This document shows positions 33,868-37,035 of a stretch of DNA of 64,000 nucleotides, piece after piece. A program made the translations under genes and the position numbers. Source of the DNA: Halanaerobium hydrogeniformans (lineage in GTDB: Bacteria > Bacillota > Halanaerobiia > Halanaerobiales > Halanaerobiaceae); NCBI RefSeq assembly GCF_000166415.1, contig NC_014654.1:2046001-2110000 (forward strand). The letters run 5' to 3'. Position 1 is the first letter of the stretch. Each line of letters starts with the position of its first letter. Below the pieces are notes generated by a model. That model was not told the DNA's origin, searched no databases, and saw only the letters and a list, made by a program, of their open reading frames with translations.

Positions 33868-34218
33868 TTATAGGTCTATTAAACCTAAACTGATTTCTAA
33901 AGAAGTATTTACATCTTCAATAACATCATCACCTAAATGCGCAATATGTCTCTGCAGACGCTTTTTATCAAGTGTTCTAATCTGTTCAAGCAAAATTACT
34001 GAATCTTTATCAAGGTTTGTATAATCAGCAGGGATTTCAACATGGGTTGGCAGTTTAGCTTTATTAATTCTAGAAGTAATTGCTGCAACAATAACAGTTG
34101 GACTATATTTATTACCAATATCATTTTGAATTATCAAAACCGGTCTAGTACCTCCCTGCTCAGATCCTACAACCGGATTTAAATTTGCGTAAAAAACATC
34201 ACCCCTTTTTACTTTCAT
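33868..34218 (-). CDS. mazF: MazF/EndoA-type endoribonuclease toxin
   Basis: This 116-residue toxin cleaves mRNA at short sequences in the cytosol. It has the family motifs [20 protein letters not shown], then [19 protein letters not shown], and [19 protein letters not shown]. It closely resembles Bacillus EndoA, whose UACAU specificity is therefore likely but unproved here. I start at the ATG preceded by GGTGGAG; an upstream in-frame ATG would add 23 unrelated residues. It overlaps the antitoxin gene by 20 bases. Confidence 0.93.
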
Positions 34219-34495
34219 TTTTTTCACACTCCACCAGTCGTTGTTCATAACATAAATATGAGTAGCAGTCACTTGATAATCCCTCATCTGCTAATTTTTG
34301 ATTTAGACCGGCCATTTTTTGGTAACCTGCTTTAAGAAGTGATCTAACCTCTTCTTTTTTAAGTTCTCTTAAATATAATTCCACTGCCTTTAACAAAAAA
34401 TTATTGCGCGGTTCATTATTCTGTTTACAATAACTCTCGATTTCTTCGACAAGCCTATGCGGTAATTCTATTTTTAATTTTTTTAATTCAACCAA
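34199..34495 (-). CDS. MazE/EndoAI-type ribbon-helix-helix antitoxin
   Basis: This roughly 98-residue antitoxin has an N-terminal ribbon-helix-helix DNA-binding domain ([17 protein letters not shown]...). A C-terminal MazF-binding region ([20 protein letters not shown]) follows, comparable to the EndoAI tail. I prefer a TTG start at 34495, which sits about 5 bases after GGGGGTGG; an in-frame TTG at 34510 is too close to any site. The gene overlaps mazF, and the protein would autoregulate the operon. Confidence 0.88.
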
Positions 34496-34535
34496 AACTT
34501 CCACCCCCAAAGATTAGTTAAACGAAAAGATGAGA

Positions 34536-34682
34536 CTATTTAGCCCCATCTTCGAGTAGAGAAACCTTTTTAATGAAATCTTCATTCACTTCTGCCATCT
34601 TTTTGTAACCACTAATCATAGCTTTGATAATTTTTTCTTTTTCAGTTTTACTAAGATTTTTTTCACGATGCAGCCTCTCCAC
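34536..34682 (-). CDS. Mini-antitoxin-like protein (MazF-binding region only)
   Basis: This 48-residue small protein starts at GTG, 5 bases after a GAGGTGGGG ribosome-binding site, and ends just before the antitoxin gene. Its middle, KAMISGYKKMAEVNE, aligns with [12 protein letters not shown] in the neighbouring antitoxin and with GYMEMAKINL-type tails of Bacillus EndoAI. That is the part that occupies the MazF groove. It has no ribbon-helix-helix domain. It is the first gene after a consensus promoter. It may be an extra MazF inhibitor or a remnant of a duplicated antitoxin. Confidence 0.65.
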   Translation of the reverse strand: MERLHREKNLSKTEKEKIIKAMISGYKKMAEVNEDFIKKVSLLEDGAK

Positions 34683-34740
34683 TGTTACCCCACCTCATTG
34701 TAAAAAAGATTAATAAAATCTTAAAAATTATTCTGTTTTA

Positions 34741-34769
34741 ATTATACATTAGTTTTGAAAAGCTGTCAA
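34741..34769 (-). promoter_or_regulatory. Perfect consensus sigma-A promoter of the toxin-antitoxin operon
   Basis: TTGACA, exactly 17 bases and TATAAT are seen on the minus strand, about 60 bases before the mini-antitoxin start. Both hexamers are at full consensus. Confidence 0.88.
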
Positions 34770-34782
34770 TGAAAATCACCTT

Positions 34783-37035
34783 TTAAAGCCTATAATATAA
34801 ACCAACTCTTTTAATATAAGTTAATAAATTTTTGTAACTTTGATGCTGACAAATTGTACTGCTATCACCAATGAATATAATTTTTCTTTTTGCTCTCGTT
34901 AAAGCTACATTTAACCTTCTGAGATCTCTTAAAAAACCAATATTAGCATCATCATTACTTCTAACAGCAGAAAAAACTACCATTTCTTTTTCTCTACCTT
35001 GAAAAGCATCAACTGTATCAATTTCTATCTCAGTTAAATTATTATGCTGATTTAAAAGATCAACTTGATCCTTATATGGAGTAATCACAGCAATGTTATT
35101 TTCATCCATTGAAAGCATGGCTGCTCTATCTAATATATCCAGTACTATTTCTGATTCTACTGGATTATCATAAGAATTTGAAGCCTTAAGTGATCTTTCT
35201 GAAGCCTCCATCTCCTTTGTATCTAAAAACACCATTGGATACTCTGGTTTTAAAGCTTTTTCGGTAAAACACTTTTCTGATTGAGGGTAAACTCCTAAAT
35301 CACCTAAATTATGTTGAGCAACCGAAGGGGCTGCTCTTAAACTTCCATCATAAAAATTAAGGCTTGAAAAACCCATTATCTTTCTATTCATCCTATACTG
35401 TATCTTCAATGTAGAAAGCGCATCAGTTGGATGAGTCTCAGATAATCTTTCAAATAAAGATTTAGCAAGACCTCCTTTGGCAGCCTGTTGGTTAATAACT
35501 GTTGGTGGAAGTTGTTTATGGTCCCCAATCAAAACACTTTTATCTGCCATAAAATAAGGAATCAGTGTTGCAGGCTGGGTTGACTGGGTAGCCTCATCTA
35601 TAACACTTAAATTAAAATGAAAGTCTTTTAATATTTCTGAACCTGCAGTTATATTTGTCGAACAAATTACATCAGCTTTATTTAAGATATCTTCTACAGC
35701 CTCATTTTCTAATTTCTCTATTTGTTTGAAATATTTATCTATTTTAGATTGAAGTTCAAGCCAGCTTGCCATTTCATTAATTACCTTAGGACTAATCCCT
35801 CGAACATGATGTTCTATATCTCTTTCTGCATATTCTTTAATTTCCTGATCCGAAAGTCCTCTCCGGTATTTACCTCCTGGATAAATATAAGAATCCTGTT
35901 TGTTAATCAAATCAGATACTTCATCTCTTAATTTCTCAGCTTCTATATAAGAGTGATGTTTTAAAACTCTGTCATCTAAAGTATTCTTTCTTAATTTTTT
36001 ATTAACTCGAATTGGATGGCCAACTCTTACAACATTAAGATCTTTTTCAATTAATAATTCTAAAAGATTATCTACAGCAGTATTAGAACCAGCGGTTGTT
36101 AGAACTTTATTACCCTTTTTTACCGCTTCAAGAACAAGTTCAACTGCAGTAACAGTTTTTCCAGTCCCAGGTGGTCCCTGGATCAAATAAAAATCTTCTG
36201 CTGCAAGAGAGTTCTCTATAGCTTTTATCTGACTTTGATTAAGAAAATCAGAATTATAACTGATTTTTGCTGTATTTGTAAATTCTTTTTTTGCTAATAA
36301 AATATCTCGTTTTCTAGTTTCAATTTCATTTTGAGGTTTTTTTACAATTTCTAAAGCAGAAAACATTCTATCAAAAGTTGTTTCGTTAACAAATAAATCC
36401 AATCTTACCCCTTTACTATATATAAATTCTGGTGGATGTTTATCAAAAGCAACTGTTATAGAATAGCTTGTTTTTTCGGCTACTGTTCCAGTTGGATTAT
36501 CAGGATGTAATGGTTTATTTAAACTAATCATTACTAAATCACCTGTCGTTATTTCAGTTTCAGGTAACTTTTTACCAGAATATTTTGAACTAAATTTTAC
36601 AAGTGGTTTATGGCCAAAACCTGAGCCGGCATCTTTACCTCTTAAATCAAGCATAGCTCTTCCCTTAGCCTGTCTTTCACTTGGGGTTAAGTATTTAATT
36701 TCTAATTTATGTCTATCTATTTCTTCTTCTCTTTCTAAATCGAGTAGCTCCGAAAATTTATTATAATAATCCATAATTTCTTTATCTACTAAATCATCAG
36801 GATTTTTTGCCTTTATATTAACCTTAACTCCACCAATTTGATTGCCATCCATAACTTCAATAATTTTTGGCGCAGAAACCAGTTCAACTTCTACCTCTGC
36901 TTTTTTTGAATTTTTATCTATTCTGATTTTGCCAATATTATTACTATCAGTACCTACTTCATTTATAAAAGCTCCTACAATATCACCTGGTCCAATACTG
37001 TTATCTATTTGCGAAATAACTAAAGTAACCATCAT
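34783..37035 (-). CDS. DbpA-domain/IGHMBP2-like superfamily 1B helicase fusion
   Basis: This 750-residue protein has a C-terminal Upf1/IGHMBP2-type helicase: Walker A GPPGTGKT at 287-294, Walker B SVIDEATQST, IGDHKQLPPT, IQYRMN, DAFQGREKEMVV and RLNVALTRAKRKI. The first 77 residues (SIGPGDIVGAFINEVG then IGKIRIDK and QIGGVKVNIKAK) look like the DbpA-type RNA-binding domain of DEAD-box helicases. I infer an RNA or RNA-DNA substrate. It lies between dcd and the toxin-antitoxin operon; GGAGGTATA precedes the double ATG. Confidence 0.8.
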   Translation of the reverse strand: MMVTLVISQIDNSIGPGDIVGAFINEVGTDSNNIGKIRIDKNSKKAEVEVELVSAPKIIEVMDGNQIGGVKVNIKAKNPDDLVDKEIMDYYNKFSELLDLEREEEIDRHKLEIKYLTPSERQAKGRAMLDLRGKDAGSGFGHKPLVKFSSKYSGKKLPETEITTGDLVMISLNKPLHPDNPTGTVAEKTSYSITVAFDKHPPEFIYSKGVRLDLFVNETTFDRMFSALEIVKKPQNEIETRKRDILLAKKEFTNTAKISYNSDFLNQSQIKAIENSLAAEDFYLIQGPPGTGKTVTAVELVLEAVKKGNKVLTTAGSNTAVDNLLELLIEKDLNVVRVGHPIRVNKKLRKNTLDDRVLKHHSYIEAEKLRDEVSDLINKQDSYIYPGGKYRRGLSDQEIKEYAERDIEHHVRGISPKVINEMASWLELQSKIDKYFKQIEKLENEAVEDILNKADVICSTNITAGSEILKDFHFNLSVIDEATQSTQPATLIPYFMADKSVLIGDHKQLPPTVINQQAAKGGLAKSLFERLSETHPTDALSTLKIQYRMNRKIMGFSSLNFYDGSLRAAPSVAQHNLGDLGVYPQSEKCFTEKALKPEYPMVFLDTKEMEASERSLKASNSYDNPVESEIVLDILDRAAMLSMDENNIAVITPYKDQVDLLNQHNNLTEIEIDTVDAFQGREKEMVVFSAVRSNDDANIGFLRDLRRLNVALTRAKRKIIFIGDSSTICQHQSYKNLLTYIKRVGLYYRL

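Follow-up and report, generated by a model that had tools for sequence, protein, structure and literature searches.

A conserved small gene upstream of mazEF in Halanaerobium hydrogeniformans and its relatives probably encodes a second MazF antitoxin

In this work we describe a small gene upstream of the mazEF toxin-antitoxin genes of Halanaerobium hydrogeniformans (contig NC_014654.1, positions 2,046,001 to 2,110,000; these 64,000 nucleotides are called the window below). The gene, which we refer to as the mini gene, occupies positions 34536..34682 of the window on the minus strand, begins with GTG, ends with TAG and codes for 48 amino acids, MERLHREKNLSKTEKEKIIKAMISGYKKMAEVNEDFIKKVSLLEDGAK. 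We consider it probable (at roughly 0.77) that this is a second, dedicated MazF antitoxin, one that consists of the helix by which an EndoAI-type MazE binds MazF and that lacks the ribbon-helix-helix (RHH) domain. We also propose, more tentatively and at slightly less than even odds, that mazEF in this bacterial class forms a module of three genes, with an antitoxin that is not a repressor, has its own and probably constitutive transcription, sets the MazF threshold and is able to take the place of MazE entirely, as in the genome G014 discussed below; such an antitoxin would be a host-encoded counterpart of the phage protein AimX.

Homology to the MazF-binding helix of MazE

Neither Pfam nor NCBIfam contains a match to the window protein. 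The mini proteins are 47-58 amino acids long, match no RHH domain and have their start codon directly before the helix. A preliminary description of this DNA, made from the letters and their reading frames, had already stated that a DNA-binding domain is lacking. It had also likened the protein to the C-terminal, MazF-binding part of MazE. This holds for the helix but not for the terminal Y-E-x-x-L-A-E-x-E tail of MazE, which the match does not cover. In the window species the mini protein and the neighbouring MazE have 9 identities in 25 positions (pairwise E 4e-4, a short alignment). At the profile level the mini proteins match the MazE C-terminal helix (columns 41-78) with hhalign values of 97-98% (E 4e-11 with members of the order), and the class-wide profile reaches a probability of 98.0 (E 1.8e-13). 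A search of solved structures with the class profile returned two matches at E up to 1. The better one is AimX of phage phi3T (8anv_C, E 1.3e-4), over 29 residues that are also common to MazE, and the other is EndoAI from the MazE-MazF complex (4me7_E, E 0.0063). In addition, three relatives match the 54-residue Staphylococcus MazE model NF041459 (E 5e-7 to 1e-6, 19-30 bits); the curated cutoff of 108 bits is reached by none of the mini proteins tested, and the window protein does not match this model.

Both structures belong to MazF inhibitors. The C-terminal helix of EndoAI blocks the RNA groove of Bacillus subtilis MazF (PMC6562991). AimX, a protein of 51 residues, binds the same MazF five times more tightly than MazE does, inactivates it and displaces MazE from it. 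Insertion into the groove, which MazE achieves in B. subtilis, has been proposed for AimX too, and the AimX contacts M14, Y18, E20 and M21 are held in common with MazE (PMC10769878). Mapped from the alignment, the equivalents in the window protein are M22, Y26, K28 and M29. The position of M14 is M or L, that of Y18 is invariably Y and that of M21 is M, I, L or F in all 42 distinct mini sequences. The likeness to AimX may reflect either homology or convergence. With regard to origin, the match to MazE is longer in the neighbouring order (EGLPADREAYQYF in the mini protein, ESFLAENKAFFNYE in MazE), which suggests that the mini gene arose as a truncated copy of mazE. Finally, there is a natural read-through mini-MazF chain in H. 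polyolivorans, for which AlphaFold gives a predicted local distance difference test score of about 90 for MazF, 58-73 for the mini helix and below 50 for the linker, values that speak to the folds and not to docking.

Distribution and selection

The preliminary description had proposed looking for the same small gene in front of mazEF in related genomes, and it is indeed widespread there: of the 59 genomes sampled from the class, whose members are mostly halophilic anaerobes, 45 from 8 families carry an intact copy before mazEF, a recurrence well in excess of chance. Among 61 related genomes searched, all those of the window's genus possess it, and each locus read in the relatives shows an intact copy, unchanged in strand and 5' of mazEF as far as the contig extends. 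A profile search found it in 30/38 genomes of the order; family f9 and the neighbouring order also have homologues before mazE, lower-scoring yet intact. The mini gene is missing from family f10 (6 genomes; mazEF adjoins alr in those read), from f6 (5 genomes) and from genus g10 of f4 (2 genomes), while G015 is at a contig edge and cannot be judged. All mini genes read are chromosomal and 5' of mazEF, and are flanked on the opposite side by the helicase gene in every stretch long enough to include it; the link to mazE or mazF is constant where the contig is long enough (that of G033 ends beside the mini gene). For the wider phylum, 398 genomes were sampled, and the matches listed from outside the class, which reach down to E about 1.5e-8, comprise only full-length MazE frames of at least 84 amino acids; short frames may exist among weaker matches.

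The mini gene is under purifying selection, as judged from its codons. The ratio of nonsynonymous to synonymous rates (dN/dS) is below 1 in 55/55 within-genus pairs (0.009/0.362 in the nearest pair), and in the genus of the window 878 of the 1683 differences fall on the third codon position, compared to 447 and 358 at the other two. Neither frameshifts nor internal stops were found in the 44 aligned loci, and a start codon and a ribosome-binding site are present throughout. Decay in close relatives, which had been raised as the outcome that would speak against a functional gene, is thus not what is seen.

No phage source came to light, as phage records contain no match to the mini gene. Two matches in IMG/VR were discarded, being unrelated phage proteins with a chance likeness to KKGYFKMG. 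As a separate observation, two PHROGs families of unknown function, phrog_21769 and phrog_35990 (115 and 135 positions), weakly match the mini helix (E 3e-4 and 2e-3); these may be YosL-like MazF inhibitors.

Genomes lacking mazE or the mini gene

In G014 (L015 / L072, contig G014:C19) an intact mini gene stands beside an intact mazF and mazE is gone. About 130 bases separate the two genes and hold a remnant that resembles the MazE tail. A genome-wide search of G014 with the MazE profile returned the mini gene as the sole match, so that the mini protein seems to be the only brake on MazF in this organism, as far as a draft assembly of about 240 contigs and 95% completeness can tell; the loss of mazE needs confirming. 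The reverse case is found in the f6 genomes and in G020: mazEF is kept and the mini gene is cleanly lost, the gap between the helicase gene and mazE being too short to hold it. (In four f6 loci, L062, L063, L066 and L067, where the mini gene is absent, the N-terminal domain of MazE is divergent.) G026 and G027, in which no MazF was found, have neither the mini gene nor MazE. Among the class genomes examined MazF is therefore always accompanied by the mini protein, by MazE or by both, and this co-occurrence is as expected if either can neutralise the toxin.

Promoter, terminator-like hairpin and probable transcription units

The remaining features of the window locus are as follows.

34741..34769, minus strand: sigma-A type promoter of the mini gene, TTGACA-17-TATAAT, exact (12/12 matches)
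34690..34696, minus strand: strong ribosome-binding site GAGGTGG of the mini gene, read from the sequence and kept in relatives
34526..34553, minus strand: 12-bp hairpin that spans the stop codon of the mini gene and resembles a terminator, though its T tract is weak (-14.4 kcal/mol; z -4.1 relative to shuffled sequences)
34199..34495, minus strand: mazE, EndoAI-type antitoxin with an RHH domain, 98 amino acids, TTG start after GGGGGTGG (a longer reading frame begins at 34510)
33868..34227, minus strand: mazF toxin (PF02452, E 1.9e-37), start GTG at 34227 or ATG at 34218
37035..34783, minus strand: DNA helicase gene, the upstream neighbour of the mini gene

Read along the minus strand, the order is helicase gene, mini gene, mazE, mazF. 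The GTG at 34682, the GAGGTGG that precedes it by 7 bases and the consensus promoter bear out the preliminary description, which had reported a well-formed small gene with these signals; the hairpin was absent from it. In passing we note that in the window genus MazE is lengthened by EKxESKKG (at 34199-34227); this extension runs into the start of mazF and is lacking in most other families.

No part of the locus varies less than the promoter. In 41 of the 44 aligned loci it reads TTGAC[A/T]-N17/18-TATA[A/C]T, close to consensus and generally 70-110 bases ahead of the start codon. A hairpin followed by a T-run is placed at or just past the mini stop codon in 38 of the 44. This hairpin was independently called terminator-like in L003 and L019; in the window a consensus terminator scan did not call it, and the T tract is weak (TTTTCG). 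A paired change between lineages, GATGAGAC/GTCTCATC versus GATGAGGC/GCCTCATC in L017, keeps the two arms matched. In 19/44 loci there is a separate promoter between the hairpin and mazE, an exact TTGACA-N18-TATAAT in most cases outside Halanaerobium. Given a promoter, a terminator-like hairpin and often a separate mazEF promoter, the mini gene seems to be transcribed as a separate unit in the majority of the class. A part of f4 (L023, L025, L026, L029 and L030) is arranged differently: the terminator-like hairpin is lost and the mini gene abuts or nearly abuts mazE. In the window species and in H. polyolivorans mazE starts about 40 bases past the mini stop codon and has no recognisable promoter; as there is no room for one, the mazEF message probably arises when transcription runs on through the mini hairpin.

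Two further observations concern these regions. The mazEF promoters of L016, L019-L022, L024, L027 and L028 share a spacer that ends in TTCTA before TATAAT; judged by eye, it was not seen in mini promoters, and it is possibly part of a MazE operator. The pentamer TACAT, the target of B. subtilis MazF, occurs 35 times in 38.7 kb over the 900 bases 3' of the mini gene, compared to 13 times in 39.1 kb of the upstream helicase gene (44 loci, kinship ignored). In the mini transcripts it occurs twice in 10 kb, i.e. it is rare but not clearly below the level of the helicase gene.

Proposed mechanism

From the reading frame, its conservation and selection, the promoter and hairpin, the homology and the genome without mazE, all read from sequence, we infer MazF binding, inhibition, relative expression levels and a threshold role along the following lines. 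The mini helix would insert into the groove of the MazF dimer and block mRNA cleavage, and, having no RHH domain, the protein would not repress DNA. Supplied from its own promoter, it would form a steady antitoxin pool that is independent of repression by MazE, and this pool would set a threshold, with MazF becoming free only once it exceeds the mini protein and MazE together. In the window species and in H. polyolivorans read-through of the hairpin would leave mini transcripts more abundant than mazEF transcripts.

The level of free toxin often alters repression by the antitoxin in type II systems, a behaviour known as conditional cooperativity. This bears on the preliminary description, which had suggested a two-antitoxin scheme in which the small protein titrates MazF without affecting autoregulation of the operon. 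A second antitoxin without an RHH domain is well supported by its conservation, by the AimX match and by G014, but the clause on autoregulation goes too far, because free MazF normally influences the binding of MazE to DNA and its titration would feed back. Nor are the two units decoupled in the window species, where mazEF has no recognisable promoter to itself and is probably reached by transcription that continues from the mini gene.

Points against an inhibitory role and alternative explanations

There are several features that weigh against a second antitoxin. The residue equivalent to E20 of AimX is K in 30 of the 42 distinct mini sequences. The C-terminal YExxLAExE tail, found in the MazE proteins of the same loci, is absent from all mini proteins and may be needed for complete occlusion of the RNA groove, although AimX equally lacks it. 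The helix of the window genus shows drift in its second half (EVNEDFIKK versus ELNLELAEE), so inhibition of MazF may be weaker in this genus than in other families, and in part of f4 this half is largely lost, as in genus g6 (GYKKIIEKESEAE). One could conclude that the mini protein binds MazF but blocks it poorly, and that by competing with MazE it weakens the hold of MazE on MazF or upsets co-repression, with a net effect that is regulatory or even activating. The lack of a tail that every MazE examined possesses, the helix drift in the window genus and f4, and the ability of AimX to displace MazE from MazF all fit such a role. On the other hand, AimX also does without the tail and still inactivates MazF (PMC10769878), and a purely activating or modulating protein would leave MazF unchecked in G014; we therefore regard this explanation as unlikely. 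A partner other than MazF is less likely again. Here the mini protein would chiefly bind something like the phage protein phi3T_93, which would otherwise sequester MazE, and would serve as a decoy that shields the MazE-MazF complex. AimX and MazE do bind phi3T_93 via the same helix (PMC10769878). The tight linkage to mazEF would equally fit protection of MazE, but retention of the mini gene without mazE in G014 is contrary to a role that works solely via MazE. We know of no phi3T_93 homologue in these hosts, and none was searched for.

The two explanations that deny a protein function can be given still less credit. A decaying, functionless piece of a mazE duplicate might account for the partly drifted copies of f4 and for the clean absence of the gene from f6 and f4 g10. 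We nevertheless hold this to be very improbable, since intact frames in 44 loci, dN/dS values below 1 throughout and a retained promoter do not agree with decay; intact frames and the selection test rule out a pseudogene for most lineages. A regulatory RNA or leader in which the reading frame is incidental would account for a compact unit of about 200 nucleotides with a strong promoter and a conserved terminator-like hairpin, and yet it is the least probable of all: the third-position excess is a codon-level signature, start codon and ribosome-binding site are kept, the product is homologous to MazE and AimX, and Rfam gave no match. On the codon signal and the absence of an Rfam match we reject an RNA gene. 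An RHH-less antitoxin directed at MazF thus remains the reading that we prefer.

Comparison with known systems

It is useful to compare the mini gene with other short MazF inhibitors and with three-gene toxin-antitoxin systems. AimX is similar in size (about 50 amino acids), consists of the MazE C-terminal helix alone, has no DNA-binding domain and shows the same M-x3-Y-x2-M contact pattern. Its gene belongs to a phage, is under arbitrium control and has no linkage to mazEF, whereas the mini gene is chromosomal, adjoins mazEF and has been kept vertically in a bacterial class; the loci read show no arbitrium context (aimR, aimP), and the mini gene stands outside that system. The Staphylococcus MazE of NF041459, a 54-residue model, is likewise essentially the MazF-binding part alone. 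However, it is the sole antitoxin of its locus, which is reported not to be self-regulated (PMC4963858), while the mini gene is an extra gene beside a complete RHH-containing MazE. The window mazEF is of the B. subtilis EndoAI/EndoA type (4me7): the window MazE profile matches EndoAI (4me7_E) with E 1e-15, and the mini protein matches the EndoAI C-terminal helix. The B. subtilis locus has no third gene and follows alr rather than a helicase gene.

Two antitoxins for one toxin are also found in SpoIISABC of B. subtilis, with small antitoxins of 56 and 45 amino acids, the second of which arose by gene duplication (PMC6562991), but there the toxin is a membrane protein unrelated to MazF and the antitoxins are not RHH-derived. 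HipBST, a type II system of three genes, assigns neutralisation and DNA binding to separate proteins (PMC10627512); it differs in that HipS is toxin-derived and now acts as the antitoxin, whereas the MazE beside the mini gene is still complete. That a small peptide can suffice is illustrated by SamF, which is reported to be a short synthetic MazF inhibitor aimed at the Escherichia coli protein (PMC12557383). By its sequence the mini protein is not a canonical MazE, as it has neither the RHH domain nor the YExxLAExE tail. Every component has a precedent (AimX, Staphylococcus MazE, SpoIISB/SpoIISC, HipBST). In the literature searched, which was incomplete, we found neither an RHH-less antitoxin that is chromosomal, present class-wide, transcribed separately and accompanied by a complete mazEF nor any mention of MazF together with Halanaerobium.

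Significance

As mazEF is usually described, one protein both neutralises the toxin and represses the operon. If our reading is right, a whole bacterial class has long retained a second gene that would be capable of neutralisation alone and that is under a near-consensus promoter of its own. The mini protein would then be a bacterial counterpart to phage AimX, with G014 as a natural genome without mazE. Such loci would offer a natural test case for a long-debated question, i.e. what share of mazEF behaviour is due to the coupling of neutralisation with autoregulation.
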